Shown here in pieces: positions 3,431-52,967 of a stretch of 54,718 nucleotides of DNA (the stretch's first letter is position 1; each line of letters begins with the position of its first letter). The position numbers and the translations under genes were made by a program. The notes under the pieces were generated by a model. The model made no database searches. It saw only the letters and a list, made by a program, of their open reading frames with translations, and was not told the DNA's origin. This DNA is from a virus: the IMG/VR virus record IMGVR_UViG_3300034374_003298, positions 1 to 54,718 of that record; one strand, given 5' to 3'.

Positions 3431-3565
3431 CTATTTTTTACAGCCACAGTCACACTGATCTAGATCATCAATATGCTGTTTTATATCAATATTTGACTTT
3501 GGTGAACGATTAGTAATGTTACTTTTTTTAATAAGTTGCCATTCTAGATCGTATAAATTTACCAT
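3431..3565 (-). CDS. 44-residue protein with Cys-rich C-terminus (CDCGC)
   Basis: A short open frame starting three bases after the ferredoxin stop codon: MVNLYDLEWQLIKKSN..., ending HIDDLDQCDCGCKK. Three cysteines within five residues plus nearby His and Asp suggest a metal or cluster site, or a redox-active tail. Its placement directly after a ferredoxin gene fits a metal-related role. There is no strong ribosome binding site; translational coupling to the ferredoxin is likely. It is small, so it could be a chance frame, but composition and position look genuine. Confidence 0.5.
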   Translation of the reverse strand: MVNLYDLEWQLIKKSNITNRSPKSNIDIKQHIDDLDQCDCGCKK

Positions 3566-3568
3566 AAT

Positions 3569-3832
3569 CTATTCTACTATATAAATACACTCACCTGGGC
3601 ATTCTTCAGCTGCCTCACGCACTATATCTTCTTGACCTGTAGGTATTCTTGCTAAACCTTCAGCACCCTGTGAATTATTATGTATTGCACTAAATATCTT
3701 TAATTCGCCAAAATTACCTACTGTTTCTTGTACATAAGCTAAACCATCATTTTGCATAATAAAAACATCAGGTGCTATTTCAGCACAAAGTCCGTCACCT
3801 GTACAAAGATCTTGATCTATATAAACTTTCAT
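3569..3832 (-). CDS. Ferredoxin of the actinobacterial [3Fe-4S] type
   Basis: 87 residues. Cys10-x5-Cys16 (CTGDGLC) followed by AEIAPDVF, then a distal Cys78-Pro (AAEECPGEC), is the layout of single-cluster ferredoxins that serve cytochromes P450 and other oxygenases in actinobacteria. A fourth Cys at 82 and an insertion at about residues 38-65 (ELKIFSAIHNN region) are unusual. It should be an electron carrier in the cytoplasm. Its ATG overlaps the preceding gene's stop (ATGA), so it belongs to the cassette 3431-10503. Its partner enzyme is not identified; typical 2-oxoglutarate oxygenases do not need a ferredoxin. Confidence 0.85.
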   Translation of the reverse strand: MKVYIDQDLCTGDGLCAEIAPDVFIMQNDGLAYVQETVGNFGELKIFSAIHNNSQGAEGLARIPTGQEDIVREAAEECPGECIYIVE

Positions 3833-4527
3833 ATATTCTTCCTTATATTTTTAATATATCTGCCTTGAAACATAGTTCCTAACTTCCAACGAGTTTCCTT
3901 TAATTTTTGTTGAATATCTTTGTATTCTAGCATTTCAATTTGCCAGTTTTCTCTTTTAAATGGGTACAAGTAGAACAATGGTTCGCCTTGCTTAATCAGT
4001 ATTTCTCTATCTTTAGATGTAACAATTAATTGTGGATTCAAATCATGGTATTCATCACTATCTAATAATCCCCACGGAAAGTACCAGTCAGGATTATTGT
4101 GATATAAAAGTGGTATTTGCATTACGCTATAACCTTTTGGTGTAATTACAGCTAATGGGTGCTTAATTTTAAAAACACCTTTTATATTTTTGTTAGGATA
4201 ATGATCTTTAAATTGATAATCTGCATGATATTCAAGTTCTATTATATTTGTAGGTGTTCGCCACATCCATTCATCGTGTGTTGCATTTATATATATATCG
4301 CATGGTGCAGGAATAACAATTCCATATTTCCATATATCTCTGAAACTAGGACACTTCTTTATTGTTGACATATCTAATTGATGTAATAAAGCTGTTTTAG
4401 GATCATCTATTGCTTTATGAACTGGCATATCTTTAAACCAATCAGGTATAAAATTTTTTGCAGGTTGAGGTAATGTTTTACCTATAGGTACATAGTCCTC
4501 TCTGCGTGGTGCAAATTGGATCTTCAT
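3829..4527 (-). CDS. Paralogous unknown family, copy A
   Basis: 232 residues, soluble, no signal peptide. It shares an ordered set of motifs with the genes at 4524-5264, 6578-7393 and 23356-24120: a PxWFK segment (IPDWFKDMP) near residue 30, KKCPSFRD near 57, a VIPAP segment (IPLWxD in others), ITPKGYSVMQ, and LLDSDEYHDLN in place of ETDSxHxxN, then FYLYPFKRE. Copy A is the most diverged of these four. The family resembles a bacterial family I recall as DUF6065, unverified, of unknown function. The start ATG overlaps the previous stop (ATGA) in a tight operon. Confidence 0.8.
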   Translation of the reverse strand: MKIQFAPRREDYVPIGKTLPQPAKNFIPDWFKDMPVHKAIDDPKTALLHQLDMSTIKKCPSFRDIWKYGIVIPAPCDIYINATHDEWMWRTPTNIIELEYHADYQFKDHYPNKNIKGVFKIKHPLAVITPKGYSVMQIPLLYHNNPDWYFPWGLLDSDEYHDLNPQLIVTSKDREILIKQGEPLFYLYPFKRENWQIEMLEYKDIQQKLKETRWKLGTMFQGRYIKNIRKNI

Positions 4528-5264
4528 TTGTACCTTCTAGTAATTTCTCTGTAGCCACCTGTCATCTTTGATCGAAGTTTAAAACTTTCATCACGCATTG
4601 CGTCATTTTCAAAATCATCAAACTCTTTAGCAACCATATTTGTTTTCTCTCTTTTAAATGGTATGACATGTAAAAATGGACTACCTCTTTTTAACAACCT
4701 ATCACCCTCACTATGCCAAATGCTAGGAAAGTTTACTTGATGAAATGAATCTGTCTCAACAATACCAGGTATCAAAGTAAAATCTCTATTAGGGTGCATT
4801 TGTGGTTGCAAGAACAATGTTGACCAACCTGGTGGTGTCCAAAAGAACCAAGGACTTGTAAACTTAACAGCATTTCTAAAATCATTTCTTTCAAAAGGAT
4901 ATGTACTAAGTTGTTCATTGTTATGAAACTCTATAACAGTTGCAAAAGTATCATCAGGATGGTTAGTTTCAAAGTGAAATTGATCACCATGTCTTTGAAC
5001 TAATATATCTGTCCATAAAGGAATAATGTATCCCTCAGTAAAATAATCTACAACAGCAGGACATTTCTTAACAGTATGCGAGTTTAGATCTTTAAGTATT
5101 GGTCCTAACTTAGGAAATGGCTTATCGTTCATACGAGGTAGATCAAGTGGTAACTTTTTAAACCACTCAGGGATCATTTGACCTGCTGGAACAGGTGGTG
5201 CTACCTCCAATAAGGACGGAACCATAGTTGCAAAAGTTATATTATTTTCTTTTTTCTTAAACAT
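4524..5264 (-). CDS. Paralogous unknown family, copy B
   Basis: 246 residues from the ATG at 5264, which has AAGGA upstream and overlaps the previous stop by eight bases; an upstream in-frame start at 5300 is less likely. Motifs in order: PEWFKKLP, VKKCPAVVDYF, GYIIPLWTD, FTSPWFFWTPPGWSTLF, GIVETDSFHQVNFP, and RGSPFLHVIPFKRE. The paired ETDxxHxxN motif could be a metal site, but no HxD...H oxygenase triad is evident. It is a member of the cassette and is flanked by an oxygenase-like gene. The function is unknown. Confidence 0.82.
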   Translation of the reverse strand: MFKKKENNITFATMVPSLLEVAPPVPAGQMIPEWFKKLPLDLPRMNDKPFPKLGPILKDLNSHTVKKCPAVVDYFTEGYIIPLWTDILVQRHGDQFHFETNHPDDTFATVIEFHNNEQLSTYPFERNDFRNAVKFTSPWFFWTPPGWSTLFLQPQMHPNRDFTLIPGIVETDSFHQVNFPSIWHSEGDRLLKRGSPFLHVIPFKREKTNMVAKEFDDFENDAMRDESFKLRSKMTGGYREITRRYK

Positions 5265-5766
5265 TTTTATCCTTATAAAACCAATGATCTGGTTCAACAT
5301 AGTGAAGAAACAACATACCTACTTTGTTATTTTCAGGATCTGGGAAATCTTCACGCCAATGTTCTTGTTCCTCACCATAAAATGCAAGAGCTTGATTAGG
5401 TTGTAATGTGTAAGCTCTGCCCTCTATAAATAAATCCCACGCTGTTTCTTGATATAGACAAATATCTAAAGTGTATGTACAAGCATTATTATCTATATGC
5501 TTTTCTAAACTTGCTTTCTCGCCCTCATAATGTGCAAATAAGGCATAGCTAGGCAGCAAAGTATCTGATTCAAATATATTCCTCGCTAATTCCACGGATC
5601 TGGCATAAAAAGGCTCTATTGCTTTCCATTCGTGATTATTTACAAAGTATCTACCAAAATCTTCAGAATAGGGAAATCTTTTATAACTTCTTTTACATAT
5701 ATTTACAATACGATCAAATACTTGATCTTCAAATATATTTTCTATTACTTTCTCTTGTCTTTCCAT
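5257..5766 (-). CDS. 2-oxoglutarate/Fe(II) oxygenase-like protein 1
   Basis: 169 residues. The core resembles a small prolyl-4-hydroxylase-type double-stranded beta helix: EKHIDNNACTYTLDIC gives the His-x-Asp iron ligands, AFYGEEQEHWRED gives the distal His, and the strand GMLFLHYVEPDHW follows. It is a close relative of the gene at 8102-8659 (shared ARxxF, LLPxxA, HxD, and Y-x-EP/TPxxxHW/F). These enzymes hydroxylate protein or small-molecule substrates. A basic residue for 2-oxoglutarate is not certain. The start overlaps the preceding gene by 22 bases. The substrate is unknown. Confidence 0.7.
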   Translation of the reverse strand: MERQEKVIENIFEDQVFDRIVNICKRSYKRFPYSEDFGRYFVNNHEWKAIEPFYARSVELARNIFESDTLLPSYALFAHYEGEKASLEKHIDNNACTYTLDICLYQETAWDLFIEGRAYTLQPNQALAFYGEEQEHWREDFPDPENNKVGMLFLHYVEPDHWFYKDKNV

Positions 5767-6581
5767 ATTCTCTGTTTTCTAGGCATTAGTTTCTTTGGTC
5801 GTCTAGCTAAAGCCTCTGTATACAATTCATTAGTGTTTCGTCTATTTACAGATGATTGACTAATTAAGTTCCATTGCTTACTAAAAGTTTCGTTCCACGG
5901 CACATACTCTAACTTGACTGGTTTAGAAAATAAAAGATTAAACATTACTGTATCGTGATTTAATAGTAATTCCTCTTGTTCTAAATCAACCCACTCAAAT
6001 GCCCATGATAAACCACGAGACCATGCGTGTATTGGCATAAAACCAGGTATTGTTGTAATTGGTAAGTTTTTACCAACATTACGATCAGAGGGTAATACAT
6101 CCATCCAAACATCAGGATCATCAGTAAATAACATAACAGGCATAGAAATTTGCATTGTAGGAATACCAGGTCTAGCCCAACCCTCTTTTTCTTCCATAAT
6201 TAATTCTGTAAAAGGACCATGATGTTTAACATTGCCATAGTAATTAGCTGACACATTGTAACCACCAAAGCGATCAACTTCATCAGCAAATTTATTTTTT
6301 TGTAATTTAATCTTTACATAGCTATATGGAAAATTTACTTCATATAATCTACTACGCATAAACTGTGTAGATACACAACCATTAGGTGCTTTTACAAACT
6401 TTTTAGGTAATTCATAATTAATAGGTGGCAACGAACTACTTTCATTGTTTTCCAATTGTCCCCAAGCTAAATTACGAGTAGGAATTGTATAGGCAACTCT
6501 TGGCGCATTTCTTAGATTATCTTTCATAGGTTGCGACCATATATCAGTTAATCTAAAATTCTTTGGTACTGGACATTTCAT
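5745..6581 (-). CDS. Paralogous unknown family, diverged copy C
   Basis: 278 residues from the ATG at 6581 (AAGGA upstream; ATGA overlap with the preceding stop). It begins MKCPVPKNF and lacks clean copies of the KKCP and ETDSxH motifs, but keeps the same length, the aromatic-rich strands and a late PGFMPIHAWSRG / VKLEYVPWNE section that aligns by position with the others. It is either a rapidly diverged member or a structurally related protein. It is flanked on both sides by cassette genes. Function unknown; family membership is less certain than for copies A, B, D and E. Confidence 0.7.
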   Translation of the reverse strand: MKCPVPKNFRLTDIWSQPMKDNLRNAPRVAYTIPTRNLAWGQLENNESSSLPPINYELPKKFVKAPNGCVSTQFMRSRLYEVNFPYSYVKIKLQKNKFADEVDRFGGYNVSANYYGNVKHHGPFTELIMEEKEGWARPGIPTMQISMPVMLFTDDPDVWMDVLPSDRNVGKNLPITTIPGFMPIHAWSRGLSWAFEWVDLEQEELLLNHDTVMFNLLFSKPVKLEYVPWNETFSKQWNLISQSSVNRRNTNELYTEALARRPKKLMPRKQRIWKDKRK

Positions 6582-7393
6582 AATATTCCTTGATCCTTCC
6601 ATCTTTTCTTATTCTGTTGGGTAAGCCAACGATAAAAACCATTTTGTCTTGTTCTCTCTGCTGATCTACTCTTTGCATAATACTTTTTATCAAGCTCATC
6701 CATTTCTCTTGTCACACCAACTTCAAGATCCCAACCATCTCTACGATAGGGGATAACCTGAATTAAAGGCATGCCTTGTCTAAAAGTTCTTTCTCCTGTG
6801 CCATGATATAAAAAAGGTATGTTCATTTGATGATATGAGTCTGTTTCGACAATACTAGGCATTATTTCTATTTCCCAATGTCTGTGATACCACGGTGACA
6901 TAATCAACACTGACCAACCTGGTGGTGTAATAATATCCCACGGATTACTAAATTTTAAAGCTGTGTGATAACTTTCAGGTGGTATAGGCATATTTCCTAT
7001 TGAAGCAGGATTATGATATGTTACCGTATCGTTATATGCGTGTTTGTTATACCAATTAAACCCTGTATCTTTTGAGTGACTTATCTTTAGATCTAACCAC
7101 AAAGGTATAATGTAGCCACTAAACATAATATCTTTAACCGTTGGACATTTTTTTAGTGAGTTATCTTTGTATGGTACACTATTCCAACTTTCATCATCAG
7201 CCCTCATCTCTGTCCACTCTCTTTGCAAATGCTTATACCAAGCTGGCATAAATTCAGTTGCAGGTTTAGGTGGTGCGAGATCTACATATTCAGGATCTGC
7301 TGTAAGAAATAAAATCTTATCATCACCAACTTTGTGTTCTTTTTCCTCTAGAAATCTTGAATATTTTTTTGTTTCCCACCATCGTTTTGCCAT
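6578..7393 (-). CDS. Paralogous unknown family, copy D
   Basis: 271 residues. Motifs in order: PAWYKHLQREW, LKKCPTVKDI, GYIIPLWLDLKI, FSNPWDIITPPGWSVLI, SIVETDSYHQMNIPFLYH, RQGMPLIQVIPYRRDGW. The Trp-rich N-terminus (MAKRWWETKKYSR) is basic. It overlaps copy C by four bases and lies two bases after the FkbM-like gene. Of the copies it is closest to B and E. No export signal is present, so it acts inside the cell or is built into the particle. Confidence 0.82.
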   Translation of the reverse strand: MAKRWWETKKYSRFLEEKEHKVGDDKILFLTADPEYVDLAPPKPATEFMPAWYKHLQREWTEMRADDESWNSVPYKDNSLKKCPTVKDIMFSGYIIPLWLDLKISHSKDTGFNWYNKHAYNDTVTYHNPASIGNMPIPPESYHTALKFSNPWDIITPPGWSVLIMSPWYHRHWEIEIMPSIVETDSYHQMNIPFLYHGTGERTFRQGMPLIQVIPYRRDGWDLEVGVTREMDELDKKYYAKSRSAERTRQNGFYRWLTQQNKKRWKDQGIL

Positions 7394-7394
7394 A

Positions 7395-8105
7395 TTACTC
7401 CAATAATAAATGTGCTTGTTGAACTACTTTTAAACCATCTTCAGGATTATCTCCTGTAAATTGTGACTTCAATGTAATAGTATTATCAGAACTATTCCAG
7501 TGAATAATATTTATTGATGTAAAACCCCAATTTCTTAATGCAGTAAAATCAGTATTTGGACTTGCTTTTAGATCATTATTCCAATACATAATAACTTTAC
7601 AGTCAGGATTATTAGTTAAAGTATCTGTACAGCCACTTAGAACATCCATTTCTTTACCATTGACATCTATGACAATAAGATCAAGATCAGTCAAAGACAA
7701 ACTATCTACAGTTATTACATCTACTGCCTCACTGTTATCACCAAATAACAGATCTAACTTTGCACCTGATTTGTTATCATCAAAATAGTACATAGTTCCA
7801 GATCCAGATGTGCTATCGCATGCTTTATTAATATTTGTAGAGTTAGGACAATTAGTTTCTAATTTAGCAAAACGATCACTTTGTGGTTCTATATTTGTTA
7901 GATCAACATCTGCATCTTCTAGTATTTTACTGGCCACACCAACACCTGCACCTACTATGAGAGCTTTGTTAATGCTGCCAAAGTTTTGATCTAGCCAAAA
8001 TTCTAAACTTGGTGCCAATGTGCTAGTTTCATTTAATAATTTATATTCAGATTTATCATTTTCATCTATATCAACTGTTGTGTTGTTTAGTAATGTCTTG
8101 TTCAT
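7395..8105 (-). CDS. FkbM-like SAM-dependent methyltransferase
   Basis: 236 residues from the ATG at 8105, which overlaps the previous stop (ATGA). SAM-binding features: ALIVGAGVGVASKIL (motif I), then NIEPQSDRFAKLE with the acidic residue that holds the ribose, VDVITVDSLSL, and DLIVIDVNGKEMDVLSG, matching the IDVEGxExxVLxG signature of FkbM-type O-methyltransferases. These usually methylate hydroxyls on sugars or small molecules. Its neighbours are oxygenase-like genes, so sequential hydroxylation and O-methylation of one substrate is a reasonable inference. Confidence 0.75.
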   Translation of the reverse strand: MNKTLLNNTTVDIDENDKSEYKLLNETSTLAPSLEFWLDQNFGSINKALIVGAGVGVASKILEDADVDLTNIEPQSDRFAKLETNCPNSTNINKACDSTSGSGTMYYFDDNKSGAKLDLLFGDNSEAVDVITVDSLSLTDLDLIVIDVNGKEMDVLSGCTDTLTNNPDCKVIMYWNNDLKASPNTDFTALRNWGFTSINIIHWNSSDNTITLKSQFTGDNPEDGLKVVQQAHLLLE

Positions 8106-8659
8106 AACCAATCTTTCTCAATTTCACTAAAATGCCTACCTGATGGAAATTGTGCATTACCTGTACTGTATTCACCTAATATAAAATGGTAACTACTAGG
8201 GGTTGCATAGTTCAAGTATAGTGCAAGAGTTATACCACCTGGGTTATTTAATCTACTATGATTTTGTTTAGATCCGTGATATGCTACTGATTCTTCGTTT
8301 CCTAATTCAATAATATGTCCACCAATATCTATTTTCCAAGTATTCTCAGAAAAATAATTGTACATAATAGTGTATTCAACTGGATCAGTGTCTTTATGAA
8401 CAGGATGTTGTTGATCAAACTCATACCAGTTAAGTGTCGCAAATGTAGGTAGCAAGTCATGAACATCAAACACTTCTCTTGCTTTGTCTATTGTATAAGT
8501 GTGTAGTGTATTTAACTCTGGACACATTTTGACCATGTGTCCTGTATTTTTCTTAAACCATGTGTCATCGTTGTTATAAGGCGTTTCACTATCTAACCAA
8601 TATCTCATTTCCTCTAATTGATTACCTTTAAATAAATCTGGTATAACAACTGCGTCCAT
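8102..8659 (-). CDS. 2-oxoglutarate/Fe(II) oxygenase-like protein 2
   Basis: 185 residues; paralogue of 5257-5766. HPVHKDTDPVEYT supplies His-x-Asp, VAYHGSKQNHSRL the distal His, followed by the LALYLNYATP strand. It continues 20 residues longer at the C-terminus (SGRHFSEIEKDWL). Its ATG overlaps the previous stop (TAATG). Iron-dependent hydroxylation is expected; the substrate is unknown. Confidence 0.7.
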   Translation of the reverse strand: MDAVVIPDLFKGNQLEEMRYWLDSETPYNNDDTWFKKNTGHMVKMCPELNTLHTYTIDKAREVFDVHDLLPTFATLNWYEFDQQHPVHKDTDPVEYTIMYNYFSENTWKIDIGGHIIELGNEESVAYHGSKQNHSRLNNPGGITLALYLNYATPSSYHFILGEYSTGNAQFPSGRHFSEIEKDWL

Positions 8660-9336
8660 TAGACACCCTCTGGTCTGTAGTTATGAGGCATACCATCAAG
8701 ATCAAGTCTATGACCTAGCCATGTTACGATTGCATACTTTGTACCATTCACAACAGGCATAGCTCTGTGAGTGTATGCGTAATTGCTAGGAAATAATACT
8801 AGAGCAGGTTTTTCTGGTTTCACATTTTCGTCAAAATGTACGAAGTATGTTCCACCACCTTCGTATTCACTTGGGTTTAATAAAATTAAAGCTGATAAAT
8901 AGCGAGGTATATGTGGTGCATAATCACTATGTGGCTTATACTCTTGCCCACCTTGATATCTTAATAAGGTATATCCCTCATCATGTTGAATAGGAAATTC
9001 GTACTTTTCTGTATATTCATTAACATACTTCATTAAAATACCATGAATTAGATCGTTAATGTTTCTGATGTCGGAAAAGTATTGATCCTTACCAGATTTT
9101 ACAGCTTCACGATAAAGTCTTGTTTCTTGTGGAGTAAAAGCTAATTGAGAAATGTTAAATAATTTATTTGATCTAATATCGCCACCTTTGTGACCTTTAC
9201 CTACTGAGGCATCTTCATATCCTATTTCAATATCAGTATCTTTATCTATTTCCTCAGTAACTGCAATTATTTGCTTGGCTTGATCTTCTGTAATTGCGTC
9301 CTCATATATTTCTACGCAACCCATAACTCTTTTCAT
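8659..9336 (-). CDS. Prolyl-4-hydroxylase-like 2OG/Fe(II) oxygenase 3
   Basis: 225 residues with a textbook P4Hc core: LLRYQGGQEYKPHSDY (His-x-Asp), LSALILLNPSEYEGGGTYF, LFPSNYAYTHRAMPV (distal His) and NGTKYAIVTWLGH (basic residue that binds 2-oxoglutarate). Of the four oxygenase-like genes it has the clearest full ligand set. The start overlaps the previous stop by ATGA. Related phage proteins are common in marine cyanophages, where substrates are mostly unknown. It acts in the cytoplasm. Confidence 0.88.
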   Translation of the reverse strand: MKRVMGCVEIYEDAITEDQAKQIIAVTEEIDKDTDIEIGYEDASVGKGHKGGDIRSNKLFNISQLAFTPQETRLYREAVKSGKDQYFSDIRNINDLIHGILMKYVNEYTEKYEFPIQHDEGYTLLRYQGGQEYKPHSDYAPHIPRYLSALILLNPSEYEGGGTYFVHFDENVKPEKPALVLFPSNYAYTHRAMPVVNGTKYAIVTWLGHRLDLDGMPHNYRPEGV

Positions 9337-10058
9337 CTTAACTCCCTTGCTTTTACTTCTGCCAATGGCATACCACTATTATAACTATCCATATCATAAT
9401 TACTGCTACAGGGAACTAAAAATGCTGCCTTTCTACCATTTAATAATGGTGTAGTTGCATGTGAATACATATAATTACTTGGCATTATAACAACTGATCC
9501 TGCTGGTGGTTTATATGGCATTGCTTCAGGAAAATACTTAAATACTAAAGCACCACCATCAAAATCATCATTAAGGTATGTAAGTACAGTACATCTTCTT
9601 AAATAAGGTGCCATATAAAACTTATTATTTTTAGGATTTCTTACTGAGTGATTATCACTATGAAATGTCATGTGTTTTGGTGGTCTATATGTAATGTATT
9701 GCCAATTTTCCATCCAATTGACTTCTCGTTCTAGATCTGGAAATAATTCAAAATACTGAGATATTTTATTTAAAGCATTAGTTTGTACTTGCCTTAAAAA
9801 TGTATAATGTTCAGGTTTTGTAAATTCTAATTCAGGATTAAATCGTATAGGTCCATTATCATTGTAAACAGTTTTCTTGCTATCATTTTTCTTTACATCA
9901 TCAGTAGTAACAGCTTTAGACCAATTATCTACATCTTGATTCATTGATTCGATAATACCCTCAGGAACTGTTAAACAATTTTCCCAAGCATAAACACCTT
10001 TAACAACTTCTTTAGGATTGCCATCTATCCAAAGATTACTCTTCTTCATAAGCGTCAT
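9333..10058 (-). CDS. 2OG/Fe(II) oxygenase 4
   Basis: 241 residues. ITYRPPKHMTFHSDNHS gives His-x-Asp, RCTVLTYLNDDFDGGALVF the central strands, IMPSNYMYSHATTPL the distal His, and LNGRKAAFLVPC the basic residue. It is more diverged from protein 3 than the two small paralogues are from each other. Two in-frame ATGs (10058, 10049) lie in the overlap with the gene before; neither has a strong ribosome binding site. It belongs to the cassette. Confidence 0.83.
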   Translation of the reverse strand: MTLMKKSNLWIDGNPKEVVKGVYAWENCLTVPEGIIESMNQDVDNWSKAVTTDDVKKNDSKKTVYNDNGPIRFNPELEFTKPEHYTFLRQVQTNALNKISQYFELFPDLEREVNWMENWQYITYRPPKHMTFHSDNHSVRNPKNNKFYMAPYLRRCTVLTYLNDDFDGGALVFKYFPEAMPYKPPAGSVVIMPSNYMYSHATTPLLNGRKAAFLVPCSSNYDMDSYNSGMPLAEVKARELR

Positions 10059-10503
10059 AAGCCGTAATTTCTTTAACTTCTACTTCCTCGTCATCTTTTT
10101 TAAAAACTAAATTATACCAACCTGCATTTAGCTTGATGTGATCTGTGTAAAACCAACGGTATATTTTTTCATATTGCATAAAGTGTTGATCTATTTTTAT
10201 TTCAGGATCACTAGGATTATCTAAGTTCTTTTTCCAAACTTCCATAATGTATTGTGGAAGATCATTTTGATCAACGAAGTCATCTACATAATTGTATGAA
10301 ATGTAATCTTTACTAGCTACATTTTTTTGAACTCTTGCAAATTGATATTCAGGTATTTCTACAAATTGTGCTTTATCAGGATCTGTAACTAATCCTTCTA
10401 AACTTTTAGACATACCACAATGAACCTCATTGGTTTTATGTTCCCATTGATCTTTGTAATCTGAAACAGATTCACCTTTAGGTATGTAGAATATATATCT
10501 CAC
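10036..10503 (-). CDS. Hypothetical protein at the head of the cassette
   Basis: 155 residues, rich in Tyr, Asp and Lys, with no recognised motif. It begins MRYIFYIPKGESVSDYKDQW and ends with an acidic tail. It is soluble with mixed alpha/beta potential. It overlaps oxygenase 4 by 23 bases and follows 10523-11446 by 19 bases, so it links the fibre genes to the cassette. It might be a fibre-associated or chaperone-like protein; this is from position only. Confidence 0.65.
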   Translation of the reverse strand: MRYIFYIPKGESVSDYKDQWEHKTNEVHCGMSKSLEGLVTDPDKAQFVEIPEYQFARVQKNVASKDYISYNYVDDFVDQNDLPQYIMEVWKKNLDNPSDPEIKIDQHFMQYEKIYRWFYTDHIKLNAGWYNLVFKKDDEEVEVKEITAYDAYEEE

Positions 10504-10522: not shown

Positions 10523-11446
10523 TTAAGCTGTGAGTGTTGCTTGAATATTGAGCTGTTCTTCTAGATAGTCGATTGTTGGTCCAAAAGAAAGAGAAAATCC
10601 CTCTTTGTAACCATCTACATCAGCTAAAAATGCAACTTCATCAAAAGCATCGATATCTTCACCTAATTTAAAAAGACAGTTTGCAATTGCCTTTTCGCAC
10701 ATTTGTAAAGCGTCAGCCTTTTCAGAAGCTAATGCCTCAGCACTTATGTTTATATCCATATCTTCTCCTATAGTGTAAGATTTACCTAGTAAGTATAGCA
10801 CGAGATACTCTCGAATATCTCTTTCAGCGAACTCACCTGCCATAGGAAATTCAGCCTCTGCTGGAATATCCAATAGCAATGCTTCGCCTTTACTATAAAA
10901 TATTTTAAATTTTTCAAATGATCCTTGATCAGTTCCGTCATCACCGTCATCAACTGCTAATGGATCCTCGTCTTTATCAAATACTGTTGCACCTGTCATA
11001 GTTATATCCATAGGACACAACATATTCCAATTACTATCAGTAAATACATAAGGACTATCATTTTTTACATAAAACTCTGTATATGGTGCAACATTTGTAT
11101 TTATGTCCCACACATAACCAACTTCATAACAGTATTCACATAATGGGCTGTTTTCCATTTTAAGAGGTTCACAATACTCATCGTTGTAATCAAATATAAA
11201 GTCTTTTCGTCTTATATAAAAAGAGAATTGTTTAGCTGTGTTTAGTTCTACATCAACATAGCCAAAGTTACCTTCAGAGGTAAAATCTAGTTTTTTTCTT
11301 GGTCCATAAGGAAATATAAAATCTATAGTGTCATCAGGTAACAAGTTCTCGTGTGTGTCATCTTTGAAAGTACCAGGAAAATAAAATAAGTTCCAGTTAT
11401 CGTAATCTTGATCTTCTCTACTGTAGTAGATTCTTACAGTAGCCAT
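10523..11446 (-). CDS. Hypothetical protein, probably virion-associated
   Basis: 307 residues, strongly acidic, aromatic-rich, with predicted beta strands in the N-terminal two thirds (MATVRIYYSREDQDYDNWNLFYFPG) and a helical C-terminal third (ALASEKADALQMCEKAIANCLF). A pair of cysteines lies in LCEYCYE. No family is recognised. It directly follows the glycine-rich adhesin genes in the same operon, so a tail fibre accessory or small capping protein is plausible. No export signal. Confidence 0.6.
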   Translation of the reverse strand: MATVRIYYSREDQDYDNWNLFYFPGTFKDDTHENLLPDDTIDFIFPYGPRKKLDFTSEGNFGYVDVELNTAKQFSFYIRRKDFIFDYNDEYCEPLKMENSPLCEYCYEVGYVWDINTNVAPYTEFYVKNDSPYVFTDSNWNMLCPMDITMTGATVFDKDEDPLAVDDGDDGTDQGSFEKFKIFYSKGEALLLDIPAEAEFPMAGEFAERDIREYLVLYLLGKSYTIGEDMDINISAEALASEKADALQMCEKAIANCLFKLGEDIDAFDEVAFLADVDGYKEGFSLSFGPTIDYLEEQLNIQATLTA

Positions 11447-11447
11447 G

Positions 11448-12107
11448 TTAAACCTTAAATGTCTTTACAGTACCGTCTGCGTATCCTGTTACATCTGTAG
11501 CTATACCTGTTAGTGGTAAGTCTTGAGAAACAATAAAAATAACTCCACCACCTGTAGTAGATTCACCACTAGCCTCTATAGTTCCATATCCTTGTAACCT
11601 TCTAGCACAAACTACTACCACACCACCACCATGATTAACGCTGTCACCTGCGCCACCTTGTAAAGCTGAAGGGGTAGTTGATCCTGCATGAACAATGACA
11701 CCTGATATAGCAATGTCAGGATGATTAAAGTATTCAGCACCCTCTGTTGGTACAGTAGCTGTGTAACCATTACCATTACCACCAAGAGAATCTGTAACGC
11801 TTTCAATAGCGCCACCTCTTAATGTTCCTGATGTAGATACGCCACCAATACGACCGATAATAGTATCTGCTTGATTTGCTGATGTAGTAGCCATAGCTAA
11901 TACATTTCTTACAAAAACTCTATAACCTGCTGTATCTAAAGTAATACCAGGATCTATTGTTAAATTGTTGTAGTACATATCTCTTGTTAAAGATGTATTT
12001 GATGATATGGTAATATTTCCGTCCATACCAGATCCATATATGCTGTCTGGTATAACATCAAATGATTCGTAGTCTGTCGGTATTTTACCTATAAATTGTT
12101 CACTCAT
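11448..12107 (-). CDS. Glycine-rich tail adhesin-like protein (short)
   Basis: 219 residues from the ATG at 12107, which sits two bases after the preceding stop with GGGG upstream. Residues 25-70 carry YGSGMDGNITISSNTSLTRD, MYYNNLTIDPGITLDT and GYRVFVRNVL, which closely match the N-terminus of the next gene (12109-13452): YGYGQDGDVTI, MYYNDLTI, GYRVFVRGTL. Then come glycine-rich loops (GGAIESVTDSLGGNGNGY; GGGVVVVCARRLQG; GGGVIFIVSQ) typical of receptor-binding adhesins at fibre tips. It probably contacts the host surface or caps a fibre. It is a clear duplication with its neighbour. Confidence 0.68.
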   Translation of the reverse strand: MSEQFIGKIPTDYESFDVIPDSIYGSGMDGNITISSNTSLTRDMYYNNLTIDPGITLDTAGYRVFVRNVLAMATTSANQADTIIGRIGGVSTSGTLRGGAIESVTDSLGGNGNGYTATVPTEGAEYFNHPDIAISGVIVHAGSTTPSALQGGAGDSVNHGGGVVVVCARRLQGYGTIEASGESTTGGGVIFIVSQDLPLTGIATDVTGYADGTVKTFKV

Positions 12108-12108
12108 A

Positions 12109-13452
12109 TTAAGCCCCTGGATCTGTATTATCTGCACCTATGTTATAAACTGTTACCACTGTTCCTGCACTTGCTGTACCTGTTCCACCTGTTCCTGCTG
12201 CTGCTGCTAAAGTCAAACCTGATGGTAATGGCTTAGTTCCTGAAACAAGTATAACAGTTCCACCTCCAGCATTGTAGCCATCTGTAGCTGTCCCACCAGA
12301 TCCACCTGCACCACCTGGATGGTAGACAGTTGGATTTGTGTCATTGTTAGTTGGATTTGTTCCGTAGTTAGTTGGATTAGAACCATAGTTAGAACCATAG
12401 TTAGCACCGTAGTTTGTTGGATTAGATCCGTAGTTAGTTGGGTTAGAACCATAGTTTGTATTTGAACCATAGTTAGTATATGGATGCCAGTGATTGTAAT
12501 GATAGTGATAAGTACCTGTTGAGTAGTTATTTACAACAACTGGATGCCAGTGATAATGTGTATGAGGATTAGATCCTGAATAAGAGTAGTTGCTTGTATA
12601 AGAATAATTATTTCCTGAGTAAGAGTAGTTGCTACCAGGATAGCTATATCCGTAGCTATATCCATAAGAATAATTGTTTCCTGAATAAGAGTAGTTATTA
12701 CCAGGATATGAATAATTATTACCTGGTGTACTTGCGTCTGGTGCTGGAGATCCATCAGTTCCTTGTGTAGCTGATGTAGAGTCATCGCCGTCAGCTCTTA
12801 CTGTTCCATCTCCTGAAATAGTTTTTGCACACACTACTACAACTCCACCACCTACTGCGCCTGTGCCTGCTGAGGCAGCATTTCCTGAACCACCTTTACC
12901 ACCTGCTGCACCAACTGTTTGGTAATCACCCCAGTTAGAGTCGCCACCATCAGCACCTGATTGTGCGTTTGCTGTAATAGATCCATCGCCTGCGCCAGAT
13001 CCACCACTAATAAATTTATACCCACCACTATCTACATCAAATTTTCTACCTTGTATAGCTACTGATAAGTTGAACATTTCATTTTCACCAGCAAAAAACT
13101 CATTACCTGAGGGGTGAGATCCTGATTGTTCACCTGAGGCACCACCTAAAGTATCTGTTGCTGCTGTACCTTTAGCAAAACCACCTTTAAGAGTTCCTGT
13201 ATTTGTTTTGTTTGTAAATCTACCAATTCTTGAAGTTGAGTCTGTAAAAGTTAAAGTACCACGAACAAATACACGATAACCATTTGTATCTAATGTACAA
13301 GATGAATTAATTGTAAGATCGTTGTAATACATATCTCTAGACAGTGTGGTGTCGGCTGTTATAGTTACATCTCCGTCTTGGCCGTAACCGTAAACTTCAT
13401 CGCCACCTAACCTGTCCAGAAAGACTGGTTCAGGTATTTCTATGTAAGGCAT
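12109..13452 (-). CDS. Glycine-rich tail adhesin with Tyr/Asn/His-rich repeats
   Basis: 447 residues. The N-terminal ~75 residues match the shorter adhesin downstream. Next are glycine-rich segments (SGGSGAGDGSITANAQSG; GGKGGSGNAASAGTGAVGGG), then a low-complexity insert at about 240-395: repeats around NNYSY / GYSY, two His clusters (HTHYHWHP and YHYHYNHWHP), and repeats around NPTNYGS. The C-terminus returns to Gly/Ala-rich strands. His-x-His strings resemble the iron-holding motifs of phage T4 fibre tip gp37. It is likely the receptor-binding adhesin. The repeat DNA should be prone to slippage. Confidence 0.68.
   Translation of the reverse strand: MPYIEIPEPVFLDRLGGDEVYGYGQDGDVTITADTTLSRDMYYNDLTINSSCTLDTNGYRVFVRGTLTFTDSTSRIGRFTNKTNTGTLKGGFAKGTAATDTLGGASGEQSGSHPSGNEFFAGENEMFNLSVAIQGRKFDVDSGGYKFISGGSGAGDGSITANAQSGADGGDSNWGDYQTVGAAGGKGGSGNAASAGTGAVGGGVVVVCAKTISGDGTVRADGDDSTSATQGTDGSPAPDASTPGNNYSYPGNNYSYSGNNYSYGYSYGYSYPGSNYSYSGNNYSYTSNYSYSGSNPHTHYHWHPVVVNNYSTGTYHYHYNHWHPYTNYGSNTNYGSNPTNYGSNPTNYGANYGSNYGSNPTNYGTNPTNNDTNPTVYHPGGAGGSGGTATDGYNAGGGTVILVSGTKPLPSGLTLAAAAGTGGTGTASAGTVVTVYNIGADNTDPGA
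12310..12745 (-). repeat. In-frame short repeats coding for NNYSY, GYSY and NPTNYGS
   Basis: Imperfect short direct repeats whose unit lengths are multiples of three, so length changes would keep the frame. On the plus strand the first array reads around TAGTTGGATTAGAACCATAG, the second around GAGTAGTTGCTAC / GAATAATTATT. Two His-rich stretches separate the arrays. Confidence 0.75.
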
Positions 13453-23355: not shown

Positions 23356-24120
23356 TTACCTTTCATTTTTAAATCTTTGCGTAATTGACCTATAAGCATT
23401 TTTAAATTTTGTATTTAATTCATTTTTTTCTAATAAATCATCTTGTATTTGTTTATCTGTCATTTGTCCTACATCTAGATCAAATTCGTCTCGTTTAAAT
23501 GGAATTACTTGAATAAAAGGTGTTCCTCGATCTATTACTGCATCTTTTGTTGTGTGCCATATTGTTGGAAAGTTTATATGATGATAAGAATCTGTTTCTA
23601 CAATACCTGGTAATACAGTAAATCTGTTTTCAAATTGATAAGTTGGTTGCATAAACATTACTGAATAACCTTTAGGTGTGTAAATTCTCCACGGATTTAT
23701 AAACTTTACTCCTTCAGGAAAATCAGTTTTTTTTAATTTCCAACCTGTTATTTGCTGTTTCCCATGAAATTCAATTCCGTATTGCAACATACCTTTGTTG
23801 TCCCATTCTAATGTTTCCATATCTCTTTGAACTAAAAAATCTGCCCACATAGGTATTATGAACCCTTCGGTAAGAAGATCTACAATTGCTGGACATCGTT
23901 TCACTGTTCCACCAGCAGTTTTAATAGCAGTTTCTTTACTTCTACCAAAGTAAAATTTTTTACCTTTTTCGTGTACAGCGTCTTGAGTAATATATTCATC
24001 CATATCTTTAAACCACTGTGGTAAAAAAAACTTAGATGGTTTAACAGGTGCAAATTCGTCTAGACCTTTTAGATCTGTTTTAAATTCTATATATTCTTTT
24101 CCCCCCAAATTAAACTTCAA
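23356..24120 (-). CDS. Paralogous unknown family, copy E, among tail fibre genes
   Basis: 254 residues with the full motif series: LPQWFKDMDEY, VKRCPAIVDLL, GFIIPMWADFLV, FINPWRIYTPKGYSVMF, GIVETDSYHHINFPTIWH, DRGTPFIQVIPFKRDEFD. It is about 13 kb from the other copies and lies between the hub/fibre gene and a fibre gene. Its location argues that the family works on, or is part of, the fibre apparatus. The start overlaps the upstream gene by four bases. Confidence 0.82.
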   Translation of the reverse strand: MKFNLGGKEYIEFKTDLKGLDEFAPVKPSKFFLPQWFKDMDEYITQDAVHEKGKKFYFGRSKETAIKTAGGTVKRCPAIVDLLTEGFIIPMWADFLVQRDMETLEWDNKGMLQYGIEFHGKQQITGWKLKKTDFPEGVKFINPWRIYTPKGYSVMFMQPTYQFENRFTVLPGIVETDSYHHINFPTIWHTTKDAVIDRGTPFIQVIPFKRDEFDLDVGQMTDKQIQDDLLEKNELNTKFKNAYRSITQRFKNER

Positions 24121-48969: not shown

Positions 48970-49143
48970 ATGTTAGATATAAAAGATTACTTAACTCAAA
49001 TGGCAGTAGGAATGACAGATGGTAAATCTCTGTATGAAGCCAAATGGGGTAAAGTAAAGAAACACAAAAGAATAAGGCAAGTTTCATCACACGCTAATTT
49101 TCATGCTATTAACTTTAAACTTACTGAGGACGATCTACCTTAA
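48970..49143 (+). CDS. Small plus-strand protein, possibly damage-inducible
   Basis: 57 residues: MLDIKDYLTQMAVGMTDGKS, LYEAKWGKVKKHKRIRQVSS, ending KLTEDDLP. Basic middle, acidic end. I prefer the ATG at 48970, downstream of the -10 TATTAT; an in-frame ATG at 48949 would lie inside the LexA-like box and add seven residues. Its end is antisense to the last 23 bases of the C5 methyltransferase gene. A small regulator or host-interaction protein is a guess; no family is recognised. Confidence 0.55.
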   Translation: MLDIKDYLTQMAVGMTDGKSLYEAKWGKVKKHKRIRQVSSHANFHAINFKLTEDDLP

Positions 49144-50731
49144 CGATTTCTGGATCAAAGACTAAAGTTTCTGCAATCATGGATCTGATGATTAATCGAC
49201 CTACAAGCTCAGAGAATTGTGGCACTACGCCATTTCCTAGAGCTTTAAGTCTGTCAACATCATTATCTTTGCGTTCAGCTACTCTTTCTTGTCCTTTTTC
49301 CCACTCGCTATCAATTCCCCAATCGTTAGTTAGTCCAAGTTCAGCCAACCATCTGGGTAACCCATAAGTCTGTTCACCCATGCTGGGTTGAGGCGCTTGC
49401 CAATCAATGTTGGATCTCGTTCCCCAATGTCCTGTTCCAAAGTAGAGCCGTGTTTCCCTGCTCTCGCTGATGGGGTATGGCGATTGACTGGCTTTGAGGC
49501 TTGACTTGCTGCTGGTGTCGAAAAAGTTTCCTTTTCCCTCACTTGCACTTTGTCTGCTAGATTGAGGGATCTGCTCTCGCCCCCACTTTTCGCTACTCTC
49601 CTGCCCTTGTCGTTCAGTTCCAAATTCTTGTGTTCGTTGTCCTGTGTCGATGGTGTCGGCCACATCTCCATTTCCTCTTTGGTTTTCCACTCCATCACTT
49701 CCACTGTCATCAATTCCTTGTCGTATTTGATCTCCTGTAGATGAGGTTTGATCTGAATCCATTGATCCACTGTTGGATGACTGAAGTATTTGTCTTTCCT
49801 GAACCAATGATCCACTGTTGATTTCTTTATTCCTGTCAATTTCTGAAGTTTGGTTGCTGATGTCTGACTCCTCAGATATTCCACGAACTCCATTTGATCT
49901 GGAAGCATTGGTCGTTTCACTATCTCGTGATCCTGGTAATACTCCATTAGGCTCGGATCCTTTTCTATCATGTCCATCCAGACTTGATCGCTCAAAGTTC
50001 TCTGTATTCTGTGACCTGTCGCTCTGCGTGTTTTCCCCTGCATGAGTTTCGTTGCGTGTTTCAGGCTGTCCTCTTTCTGATCCATTGTTGTGGGTGTTAA
50101 CCAAATTTTCGGATTCTCTCGCAAGTTGCCAGTAGATTTTCTTTTGCTCTTCCTCTCTGGATCTCCACGATACAAGGCTCTCTCCAAAGCGTCCCCTGAT
50201 CTCGCTGGCAAGTGATCCATAGTGTTCGGTGTCTCCCACGATTCCAACTCCCACCCATCTTTGTCTTTTGTGCCTTGCTCCAACGAACTTTGCTGATATA
50301 AGTTGCCATTCAAATCTATAATGGCGCATTTCGGCCACACCTTTGAGGACACGATTAATGGCTTCTCCGTTGCTTGCTCTGAGGATGTTGGGGACATTTT
50401 CCAACATGAAGACTGGTGGTCGTAACTCATTAATAAATCTTTCGACTTCATCCCATAACCATCTTTCATCTAATACTCCTTTCTGGTTTCCTGCCACGCT
50501 TACTGGCTGGCAAGGAAAACCTGCTGTGATAATATCTACCTCTGGTAAATCTTTTGTGTTTATTTCCTCAACATTTTTGTTTAAAACTAAACTATCAGGA
50601 AAATTTTTTTTTAATATTTTTGTACAAAATTCATCGTTATCTATTTGCCATTTGACATCAGTAACAAGTCCTGATCTAACTAAGCCAAGTTCTATACCAC
50701 CAATACCTGCAAACATGCTGCCAAGTCTCAT
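49121..50731 (-). CDS. C5-cytosine DNA methyltransferase with long polar insert
   Basis: 536 residues. Motif I FAGIGGIE (7-14), motif IV GFPCQPVS with catalytic Cys74, motif VI ENVP (110-113), motif VIII-like RHKRQRWVGVG (~152-163), and motif X DRLKALGNGVVPQ (~493-505). Between ~170 and ~430 the chain is low complexity, rich in Ser, Asn, Asp, Glu, Gln and Arg, where the target recognition domain would be expected. That stretch lies over a separate 379-codon frame. The 3' end overlaps a plus-strand gene. It methylates cytosines, likely to protect phage DNA from restriction. Confidence 0.87.
   Translation of the reverse strand: MRLGSMFAGIGGIELGLVRSGLVTDVKWQIDNDEFCTKILKKNFPDSLVLNKNVEEINTKDLPEVDIITAGFPCQPVSVAGNQKGVLDERWLWDEVERFINELRPPVFMLENVPNILRASNGEAINRVLKGVAEMRHYRFEWQLISAKFVGARHKRQRWVGVGIVGDTEHYGSLASEIRGRFGESLVSWRSREEEQKKIYWQLARESENLVNTHNNGSERGQPETRNETHAGENTQSDRSQNTENFERSSLDGHDRKGSEPNGVLPGSRDSETTNASRSNGVRGISEESDISNQTSEIDRNKEINSGSLVQERQILQSSNSGSMDSDQTSSTGDQIRQGIDDSGSDGVENQRGNGDVADTIDTGQRTQEFGTERQGQESSEKWGREQIPQSSRQSASEGKGNFFDTSSKSSLKASQSPYPISESRETRLYFGTGHWGTRSNIDWQAPQPSMGEQTYGLPRWLAELGLTNDWGIDSEWEKGQERVAERKDNDVDRLKALGNGVVPQFSELVGRLIIRSMIAETLVFDPEIVKVDRPQ
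49330..50469 (-). CDS. Overlapping gene inside the C5 methyltransferase gene (+1 frame)
   Basis: 379 codons on the same strand, wholly within the methyltransferase gene. The ATG at 50469 has AGAAAGGAG (50476-50484) six bases upstream. The protein has ordered features: SSKVWPKCAIIDLNGNLYQQ, ETPNTMDHLPARS (79-91), WLTPTTMDQ, a helix-turn-helix-like block (ATKLQKLTGIKKSTVDHWF, about 205-223, then HPTVDQWIQIKPHL), WPTPSTQD (270-277) and LNPAWVNRLMGYPDGW (360-375). These match, by recall, a family of phage proteins found beside C5 methyltransferases. A 379-codon frame without stops is unlikely by chance in AT-rich DNA. Confidence 0.72.
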   Translation of the reverse strand: MKDGYGMKSKDLLMSYDHQSSCWKMSPTSSEQATEKPLIVSSKVWPKCAIIDLNGNLYQQSSLEQGTKDKDGWELESWETPNTMDHLPARSGDALERALYRGDPERKSKRKSTGNLRENPKIWLTPTTMDQKEDSLKHATKLMQGKTRRATGHRIQRTLSDQVWMDMIEKDPSLMEYYQDHEIVKRPMLPDQMEFVEYLRSQTSATKLQKLTGIKKSTVDHWFRKDKYFSHPTVDQWIQIKPHLQEIKYDKELMTVEVMEWKTKEEMEMWPTPSTQDNEHKNLELNDKGRRVAKSGGESRSLNLADKVQVREKETFSTPAASQASKPVNRHTPSARAGKHGSTLEQDIGERDPTLIGKRLNPAWVNRLMGYPDGWLNLD

Positions 50732-51390
50732 TTGATTCTTTCTTTTGCTATTTCTAAATATTCTGGTACTAATTCTATACCAATAAAACTTCTTTGTCTA
50801 TTCATGCAAACTACTCCAGTTGTTCCACTACCTAAGAAAGGATCTAGTACAATTTCACCCTTTTGTGTGTAATTTTTAATAAAATGATCAGCTAAAGAAA
50901 GAGGCATTTGTGCATTTAAGTTTTTTATATACTTAGTTCCTTTATTTATTTCAACATGATTTCTTAAAAAATGTTTATTTCCTTTTACCTTAGATTTAGA
51001 AAAACATAAAATATATTCAACTACATTTGAAACATAATATTGTTTTGAACTAGGTGTTGCATTAGGCTTATACCAAATAAAGTTTTGTTCTAAAATATCT
51101 GCATAATGACCTATTAGTTTAAAAACATCTTTTTTATTTTGTGAGTTTGCTTGTATATTCCAAAAAACATACCCACTAGAAACTCTTAAAAGCTGGTCAA
51201 TGATTTTTGTACACCAATCAAAATAGTTTTCATTACTATCTTCAAAATGTTCATATTTACCTTTTGCTTTTGATTGTATAGATCTACTTCTGCCAATATT
51301 GTATGGTGGACTAGTAAAAACATGATCTACATAGTCATCTTGCATTTCTTTTAATATTTCTAAAGCGTCACCTTGAAATAATGTTATCAA
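50728..51390 (-). CDS. SPPY-type amino-methyltransferase
   Basis: 220 residues. Starts MITLFQGDALEIL, then VFTSPPYNIG (motif IV), and near the C-terminus LDPFLGSGTTGVV (motif I, beta-class order) and FIGIELVPEYLEIAKERI. It modifies adenine N6 or cytosine N4. The start is TTG at 51390, with AAAGGA five bases upstream that lies in the coding region of the upstream gene's AKERI motif; no ATG fits before the catalytic motif. It ends four bases into the C5 gene start (ATGA). Confidence 0.85.
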   Translation of the reverse strand: MITLFQGDALEILKEMQDDYVDHVFTSPPYNIGRSRSIQSKAKGKYEHFEDSNENYFDWCTKIIDQLLRVSSGYVFWNIQANSQNKKDVFKLIGHYADILEQNFIWYKPNATPSSKQYYVSNVVEYILCFSKSKVKGNKHFLRNHVEINKGTKYIKNLNAQMPLSLADHFIKNYTQKGEIVLDPFLGSGTTGVVCMNRQRSFIGIELVPEYLEIAKERIK

Positions 51391-52291
51391 TTCGTTCCTT
51401 TGCTTTTTCGTAAAACTCTGGATCTAACTCGGATCCTATAAAATTTCTTTTTAATTCTAATGCTGCAACTCCAGTACTGCCACTACCCATTGTAAAATCT
51501 GCAACAAGATCTCCTTTGTTGGTAAAGCTGTAAATAATATCCTTTAAAAGATCAACAGGTTTCTGTGTTGGGTGTATTTTTTCCTCATCTCTAGGATATT
51601 TCAATATGTTGCTTTTTATTTTTTCGCCTTTTTTTAAATTAAATGTTTGTAAATGCTTGTTGTTTATTTTTTTTAATTCTTTATAAGGAATAAATTTTTC
51701 GTTATTTTCAAGGTTGAATCTTTCAATGAGATCGTTATAAGCCTCTTCGGTGCATAATTTGAACTGTGTGCTTTCTGTTCTAAAGGTATGGTCTATTCTT
51801 TGTCCAAATTCTAAAATTAATTTTGCTTTACTCCAACCTATATGTTTTTGTAACCAAGAAAAATATTGTCGCAATGGATTATTGTTCATGGTGTCGTATC
51901 TTTTTGTAAAAACAATAATATCTTCAAAATAGTTAAGAGGCGCTCTCTTAGCCTGAAAAGCGTTTGCAAAGTGATCCTTTTCCCAGATCATTGTGTAAGA
52001 AAAGTTTAAATTATAAGAACTATGATTTATAAGGTTTGTTGTAAACGGTTGTACTCCAAAAAGTATTAATCTACCTGATTCCCTTAGTAATCTTTCCGAC
52101 ATCAGAAAAAACTTGTCTAAATCTATTGAGCTGTCCCAATCAAACTTTCCAAGCATACCATTAGTGTATCTACCATCATCTTTGCCTATATCTTTCATTA
52201 ATCCATAGGGAAGATCACATAAGATAAGATCAACAGAAGAATGATCTAAAGTTTCCATAAACTCTAAACAATCGCCATTAAATAGCTTCAA
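51368..52291 (-). CDS. DLPY-type adenine methyltransferase
   Basis: 307 residues. MKLFNGDCLEFM start, ILCDLPYGLM (motif IV), FEDIIVFTKR, HPTQKPVDLL, and ADFTMGSGSTGVA (motif I). An internal segment (about 125-215) is longer than in the neighbours and is probably the target recognition part. The start is TTG at 52291 after AAAGGAGA in the preceding gene's last codons, the same junction as the next gene. Likely N6-adenine specificity. Confidence 0.85.
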   Translation of the reverse strand: MKLFNGDCLEFMETLDHSSVDLILCDLPYGLMKDIGKDDGRYTNGMLGKFDWDSSIDLDKFFLMSERLLRESGRLILFGVQPFTTNLINHSSYNLNFSYTMIWEKDHFANAFQAKRAPLNYFEDIIVFTKRYDTMNNNPLRQYFSWLQKHIGWSKAKLILEFGQRIDHTFRTESTQFKLCTEEAYNDLIERFNLENNEKFIPYKELKKINNKHLQTFNLKKGEKIKSNILKYPRDEEKIHPTQKPVDLLKDIIYSFTNKGDLVADFTMGSGSTGVAALELKRNFIGSELDPEFYEKAKERIDNIISR

Positions 52292-52967
52292 TTCTCTCCT
52301 TTGCTAATTTGTAATTATCGTTGTTTAATTCAATTCCAATAAAATCTACATTGTTTTTTATACAAGCGACACCAGTAGTTCCACTTCCCATAAAATTATC
52401 TAAAACAACATCGTTTGGTTTTGAGGCAATTTTTAATATTCTGTCTGCCAGAGCTAATGGCATTTGTGTAGGGTGTATTCTTTCTGCTTTTGGTATATTG
52501 TGTGGTACATACCATACAGAAGTTAATGGATCATCTATACCACAATCACTGTTTAAATAAATATCATCTCCTTTTGCAAGGTGATATATAATTTCGTAAT
52601 CTAAATGGAATCTAGCTTTGGAACTATCAAAGCTACCAGCATATTTCCAAATAATGTAACTTTTGAAATCAAGCTGTTGAAAAGCATTTGTAAATTCTAA
52701 CCAATGAGGTGTCCTTAATTTTTTTTGCGCTGTTTTGCTTTTAATATTAAAAAACAACTGGCCGTTAGGTTTTAAGATCCTGGCGTATTGTTCAAAGACT
52801 TGATCTATAAATTCTGAGTACAGCTTTAAAAATAGAATATCTTTGTTACTAGCTTGATATCCTGCACCAGAAATATCTTCATAAGGTGGACTTGTAACAA
52901 TTAAATCAATAGAGTTATCTGGTAACTCTTTCATAACTTCTAAACAATCACCATTAAATAATTTCAT
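52278..52967 (-). CDS. SPPY-type amino-methyltransferase
   Basis: 229 residues. MKLFNGDCLEVM, VTSPPYEDISG (motif IV), HPTQMPLALADRI, DNFMGSGTTGVA (motif I), FIGIELNNDNYKLAKERI. ATG at 52967 with GGGGAA upstream. It is a paralogue of both neighbours, so the three arose by tandem duplication. Substrate base N6-A or N4-C cannot be told from SPPY. Confidence 0.85.
   Translation of the reverse strand: MKLFNGDCLEVMKELPDNSIDLIVTSPPYEDISGAGYQASNKDILFLKLYSEFIDQVFEQYARILKPNGQLFFNIKSKTAQKKLRTPHWLEFTNAFQQLDFKSYIIWKYAGSFDSSKARFHLDYEIIYHLAKGDDIYLNSDCGIDDPLTSVWYVPHNIPKAERIHPTQMPLALADRILKIASKPNDVVLDNFMGSGTTGVACIKNNVDFIGIELNNDNYKLAKERIEAI

Follow-up and report, generated by a model that had tools for sequence, protein, structure and literature searches.

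A phage cassette of oxygenases, a methyltransferase and dUTPase-like proteins as a candidate maturation module for a receptor-binding fibre tip

Why would a phage keep several oxygenases, a methyltransferase, a ferredoxin and multiple copies of an unnamed protein family packed side by side, and on what might these proteins act? The question is raised by the virus record IMGVR_UViG_3300034374_003298 of IMG/VR, which was analysed whole (54,718 nucleotides) and is referred to below as the window. Its minus strand carries at 3431-10503 a cassette of twelve tightly packed open reading frames (ORFs), counting a conserved 44-amino-acid ORF at 3431-3565. The initial annotation had described eleven genes joined by ATGA/TAATG; the single tight run and most of these joints stand, while a few joints have longer overlaps and the 44-amino-acid ORF makes the number twelve. 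The boundary drawn at that time, 3431-10503, leaves out a repeat-bearing fibre-tip gene just upstream. Given the gene content, protein families, predicted folds, conserved gene order and association with this repeat tip, all of which were observed, we consider it fairly probable that the cassette serves the maturation of the receptor-binding fibre tip, working by hydroxylation and O-methylation and elsewhere by O-glycosylation, and that it probably finishes the tip chemically before attachment to the host.

Gene content of the cassette and its surroundings

The features are listed in their minus-strand order, with g307 preceding the cassette and the fibre-located U5 given last; lineage 1 comprises the window and its closest relatives, and lineage 2 is a second set of loci described below.

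12109..13452, minus strand: fibre-tip ORF, 447 amino acids, the proposed substrate, with repeats; transcriptionally upstream of the cassette
11448..12137, minus strand: second tip-like ORF (tip2), 229 amino acids, with a paralogous N-terminus and without the repeats; lineage-2 homologue at E 2e-50
10523..11446, minus strand: g307, the protein always heading the cassette in lineage 1
10036..10503, minus strand: u155, kept in both lineages
9333..10058, minus strand: ox1, 2-oxoglutarate (2OG)-Fe(II) oxygenase; PF13640 E 2.7e-8; H133, D135, H200 and R209 invariant (31 sequences)
8659..9336, minus strand: ox2, 2OG-Fe(II) oxygenase of prolyl/lysyl-hydroxylase type; PF13640 E 3.1e-14
8102..8659, minus strand: ox3, probable oxygenase; PHROG 2954 E 5e-6; H88-K-D; absent from some relatives
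7395..8111, minus strand: FkbM-type methyltransferase; PF05050 27.9 bits, cut-off 22.7; likely start ATG at 8105
6578..7393, minus strand: U4; PHROG 7084 E 6e-52; predicted dUTPase fold
5745..6602, minus strand: U3, very conserved; dUTPase-like fold predicted at low confidence; likely start 6581
5257..5766, minus strand: ox4, probable oxygenase; PHROG 2954 E 5.5e-15; H90-I-D
4524..5300, minus strand: U2; PHROG 7084 E 7e-57; borderline DUF6065; likely start 5264
3829..4527, minus strand: U1, a diverged, optional member that few relatives have; PHROG 7084 E 9e-47
3569..3832, minus strand: small ferredoxin (Fer4_15, 6.5e-18), adjoining the cassette in nearly all lineage-1 loci
3431..3565, minus strand: conserved 44-amino-acid ORF, following the ferredoxin in 49 of 55 loci
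23356..24120, minus strand: U5, among fibre genes; PHROG 7084 E 1.6e-75; in the same place in most long records

The tip carries the repeats PGNNYSY, GYSYGYSY, HTHYHWH, YHYHYNHWHP and NPTNYGS, and a repeat tip was found upstream in every one of the 62 cassette loci with enough sequence, i.e., at least 2.6 kb upstream of g307 (many of these contigs are redundant, and 27 distinct sequences are represented). When 2.9 million viral contigs were scanned for NNYSYxGNNYSY, 27 contigs were returned, all of this lineage; three newly seen ones lack U3 because they end within the region. Two scans of IMG/VR yielded 52 and 56 cassette loci (many contigs common to both) with one gene order, g307-u155-ox1-ox2-(ox3)-FkbM-U4-U3-(ox4)-U2-(U1)-ferredoxin, in which U1, ox3 and ox4 are optional. 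Within the contigs of conserved order U2 and U3 are kept down to about 57% identity, and most long records hold an extra U gene among the fibre genes. Since the order is kept in about 50 contigs, the cassette is not a chance assembly.

A search with the N-terminal 110 residues of the tip returned 33 lineage-1 loci and 18 others. Five of these 18 make up lineage 2, whose tips share about 50% identity with that of the window, have a Tyr-rich insert (maximum Tyr per 60 amino acids 0.17-0.25) and, in both of the two that were scanned, give weak Pfam Collagen matches. Downstream of the tip lie tip2, u155, ox1, ox2, ox4 (in four of the five), a PF11397 N-acetylglucosamine (GlcNAc)-transferase and three U genes, and few of the genes that lineage 2 has in common with the window lie outside the tip and cassette block. 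The PF11397 gene (E 2e-11 to 6e-15) takes the place of FkbM; the same family, which includes the Skp1 hydroxyproline GlcNAc-transferase, is encoded between U2 and the ferredoxin in two lineage-1 cassettes (L041 and L051). In a tree, the three lineage-2 U genes formed one clade (98/95) apart from U2, U4 and U5, and thus U multiplied independently in both lineages.

Four oxygenases had been proposed for the cassette. For ox1 and ox2, which exceed the Pfam cut-off for 2OG-FeII_Oxy_3, this is secure; ox3 and ox4, for which the Pfam scan of the window proteins gave no significant match, are probable oxygenases by their H-x-D motif and PHROG 2954. In ox2 the HxD...H iron ligands and the 2OG-binding Lys are present (H136, D138, H190 and K200, invariant in 31 sequences), and its nearest solved relatives are prolyl 4-hydroxylase (5iax/3itq, E about 1e-6) and LH3 (E 3e-4). 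In ox4, H90, D92 and H136 are invariant in 38 sequences, and the protein is related to Syn9 gp54, the product of a gene of the cyanophage oxygenase cluster. PHROG 2954 and 3531, both labelled 'ferrochelatase', are matched by ox1, ox2, ox3 and ox4, and the label is repeated in several cyanophage records; because clear oxygenases match it too, we take it as a misnomer for ox3 and ox4. The methyltransferase and the ferredoxin were assigned correctly at the outset, and C10, C16, C78 and C82 of the latter are invariant. The 44-amino-acid ORF begins with a constant MVNxYxLExxLLKKS, varies at its end, where CxCGC is often found, and looks like an iron-binding or precursor-type peptide.

This gene content could also be read as a pathway to a secondary metabolite, or as one for the modification of a short precursor, for which the 44-amino-acid ORF would be a candidate. 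A ferredoxin, oxygenases and a methyltransferase do stand together, the ORF has the constant and variable ends just described, and cyanophage versions of the block include halogenases. However, no precursor-binding or export gene was recognised, several cassette loci do without the ORF, none was noticed in lineage 2, and the constant neighbouring tip would be left unexplained, so that we regard such a pathway as very improbable.

Predicted fold and distribution of the U proteins

The initial annotation had counted four cassette copies of the unknown family and a fifth among the fibre genes. U1, U2, U4 and the fibre-located U5 are indeed one family (PHROG 7084, E 9e-47 to 2e-75), while U3 has only a KCP tripeptide in common with them. 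Against the DUF6065 (PF19541) cut-off of 26.6 bits, U5 (26.9) and U2 (26.8) lie at or just over the threshold and U4 (21.1) below it, with U1 and U3 unmatched. Structure prediction, already named as a route to this family, gave an AlphaFold2 model of U4 from a 38-sequence alignment (predicted local distance difference test, pLDDT, 78.7; predicted template modelling score, pTM, 0.70) for which all rows listed by Foldseek and VIA-align were dUTPases or dCTP deaminases (Z up to 9.9), among them 3ecy_A with Z 9.4 and a root-mean-square deviation (rmsd) of 2.9 over 119 residues. The U1/U2/U4/U5 family is therefore predicted to have, at the level of the monomer, the beta-clip fold of dUTPase/dCTP deaminase. 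A separate model of U3 (pLDDT 62) also returned dUTPases, with Z 8.2 and rmsd 3.2 over 127, suggesting the same fold at low confidence. The comparison of U3 with the U profile showed no sequence kinship, and U3 as a sequence-level copy of the family is thus unsupported; a link through the fold alone is tentative for that reason. No phage in the annotated phage collection matched U3, and a PDB sequence search with the U and U3 profiles gave no useful match.

A profile of 65 U sequences aligned in register with planctomycete dUTPases at E 0.003 in one comparison, with a probability of only 10.5%, pairing TPPGW with IPDGY, IVETD with TIDAD and QGMPLIQV with HGDRIAQL; other cassette profiles gave E values of 0.17-0.78. 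The acid of dUTPase motif 3 (GVIDxxY) is Glu in U2, U4 and U5 and Asp in U1 and in most relatives, including the cyanophage and halovirus ones, and the U proteins have an Asp at the motif-1 place. In contrast to the dUTPase superfamily, they have extra N- and C-terminal parts, motif 2 (PRSxxA) and the Gly-rich motif 5 are missing from every row of the U alignments, and PF00692 had no match anywhere in the window. Judged by the missing motifs, the U proteins are not dUTPases. Invariant in the alignment are Cys83, His127, Lys147, Asn191 and Arg218 (U4 numbering). The suggestion that U supplies substrate binding or a new catalysis is plausible because its fold is predicted to be dUTPase-like.

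The distribution of U is wider than that of the cassette. T4-like cyanophages have one U behind the fibre genes, with an oxygenase run and one or two Trp halogenases as its neighbours. In Syn9 (gp41-gp54) and S-CREM1 (ORF69-ORF80) this run of 2OG/JmjC oxygenases, some of them related to ox2 and ox4, stands directly behind Gly/His/Asn/Tyr-rich fibre genes, as in the window; the cyanophage cluster differs in its single U, its halogenases and the lack of U3, of an FkbM match and of PGNNYSY repeats. In the cyanophage loci L057, L058, L059, L097 and L102, Trp halogenase genes adjoin Gly/His/Asn-rich fibre genes on one side and the oxygenase run on the other, and these halogenases may act on fibre residues and not on free tryptophan. 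Haloviruses also have one U, which in HRTV-7 adjoins thymidylate synthase near a poly-Gly tip, in a genome with no PF13640 match. Poly-Gly tips do not single out U and were dropped as its marker: of 13 control fibre loci that lack U, 11 have such a tip. In L105 a ThyX-like gene, an oxygenase and U stand in a row; two virus types that are not related (L105 3195-5176 and L004 5753-7789) have a U homologue beside a thymidylate synthase gene. Without PF13640, U follows a tail-tip gene in L106, L107 and L109 and lies among head genes in L131. Outside phages, the U profile reaches bacterial DUF6065 members at 1e-4 to 1e-10; these (199 genomes, one phylum) are mostly without cassette-like neighbours, and at one locus an ox4-like stretch adjoins. 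In L150 (7100-9812), a planctomycete DUF6065 gene adjoins a long ORF with an ox4/gp54-like stretch. A scan of a genome collection gave two loci only, one of them phage-contig-like.

Because of the dUTPase-like fold and the thymidylate synthase neighbours, the main chemical alternative is nucleotide or DNA modification, in which U would be a divergent dUTPase/dCTP-deaminase-like enzyme on (modified) nucleotides and the oxygenases would have bases or nucleotides as substrates, in the manner of TET/JBP-type enzymes. The acid kept at motif 3, the gene neighbours in HRTV-7 and L105 and the absence of a PF00692 dUTPase from the window fit with this. We nevertheless judge it distinctly unlikely, as motifs 2 and 5 are gone, the nearest solved relatives of the oxygenases are protein hydroxylases, and the block goes with fibre tips and FkbM or GlcNAc-transferases, not with replication genes.

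For U alone, the main alternative is that it is a fibre-assembly factor or minor structural part, such as a trimeric cap or chaperone, and not a partner of modifying enzymes. dUTPases and tail fibres are alike trimeric, U5 lies among the fibre genes, and in L106, L107 and L109 U comes after the tail-tip gene and a small gene read as tail-assembly-chaperone-like. The initial annotation had held that its reading would fail if the family proved structural and did not occur together with oxygenases; half of this applies, since some phage records with a U homologue have no PF13640 match. The independent multiplication of U in two lineages that each have oxygenases, the five invariant residues, which are polar, and the occurrence of DUF6065 in bacterial genomes speak against a structural role, which we regard as possible though doubtful.

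Proposed maturation of the tip

The maturation of the fibre tip that we favour could proceed as follows. The tip (12109-13452) would be made with its Tyr/Pro/Asn/His-rich repeats, the side chains of which would then be hydroxylated by the 2OG oxygenases; ox2 would be the prolyl/lysyl-hydroxylase-like enzyme, and ox1, ox3 and ox4 may favour other residues or sites. The new hydroxyls would be O-methylated by FkbM here and glycosylated by the PF11397 GlcNAc-transferases in relatives. The U proteins, with their predicted dUTPase fold and perhaps trimeric as dUTPases are, may attach to the tip or to a ligand and assist in presenting or folding the tip, and the ferredoxin would give electrons, perhaps keeping the iron reduced. 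The finished tip might be stiffer, more adhesive, protease-resistant or altered in receptor binding. The initial annotation had likewise seen a multi-step modification system, directed at the fibre proteins or a host surface glycan; of these targets the fibre is well supported by context, namely the tip at all testable loci and the recurrence of the block in lineage 2, and nothing was found in support of the glycan.

Several points weigh against this proposal. All 62 loci come from one phage lineage. That the other 13 of the 18 tip homologues have neither the Tyr-rich insert nor the cassette speaks for the association of the two, but the match of these 13 to the tip is confined to a short stretch; relatedness is thus a confounder, and shared descent may explain much of the association. 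No classical Gly-X-Y collagen was found in the window's own tip, and the Pfam scan found no PF11397 GlcNAc-transferase in its cassette. For the ferredoxin no partner is evident, and no lineage-2 counterpart turned up. The U genes of HRTV-7, L106, L107, L109 and L131 stand without a recognised PF13640 oxygenase, and U is thus not strictly part of an oxygenase system. The chemistry, moreover, is one that we infer, as are the substrate, the trimers and the roles of U and the ferredoxin.

Among known systems, the prolyl 4-hydroxylases of collagen-like proteins (Bacillus anthracis 5iax/3itq) resemble ox2 in the kept H-x-D...H...K, and lineage-2 tips are partly collagen-like; the window differs in its several oxygenases per operon, its Tyr/Asn/His-rich, non-collagen tip and its phage fibre context. 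In the Skp1 hydroxyproline GlcNAc pathway (PMC3515798, PMC11570480), as in lineage 2, L041 and L051, a hydroxylase is paired with a PF11397 transferase; the window has FkbM in place of PF11397 and no Skp1. Collagen hydroxylation in viruses and bacteria and the glycosylation of hydroxyproline have precedents (PMC9301287, PMC8968730, PMC3515798), and the viral prolyl 4-hydroxylase of PBCV-1 is cited in PMC9301287. Cyanophage genomes hold many 2OG oxygenases, for which roles in nitrogen signalling, DNA repair or protein modification in general have been suggested (PMC3037559, PMC9964418). In the literature searched, outside which most subscription journals lie, we found no phage fibre module in which several oxygenases and a methyl- or GlcNAc-transferase stand with paralogous dUTPase-fold proteins round a YSY/PGNN repeat tip, nothing direct on phage tail-fibre hydroxylation and no paper naming DUF6065.

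The system names a concrete protein substrate that is open to ordinary virion mass spectrometry, would link hydroxylation to methylation or GlcNAc transfer, and gives an unnamed phage family (PHROG 7084, near DUF6065) a predicted fold. If the proposal is true, the receptor-binding tips of common marine phages would be chemically finished proteins, and the sequence by itself would not tell how they bind their receptors. A more speculative extension, which we hold to be rather unlikely, is that fibre modules of tailed viruses took up the dUTPase fold as a trimeric partner, possibly a mixed trimer, whose task is to capture the tip repeats so that they can be hydroxylated and O-capped. The phage would then encode an adhesive tip matured after translation, which could be compared with hydroxylated adhesives of the mussel or collagen kind.

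Elsewhere in the window, the minus strand at 49121-52967 holds a DNA methyltransferase (49121-50731) followed by three ORFs that each match the putative DNA methyltransferase of cyanophages Syn9 or P-TIM40, which may be a case of a split or repeated gene.

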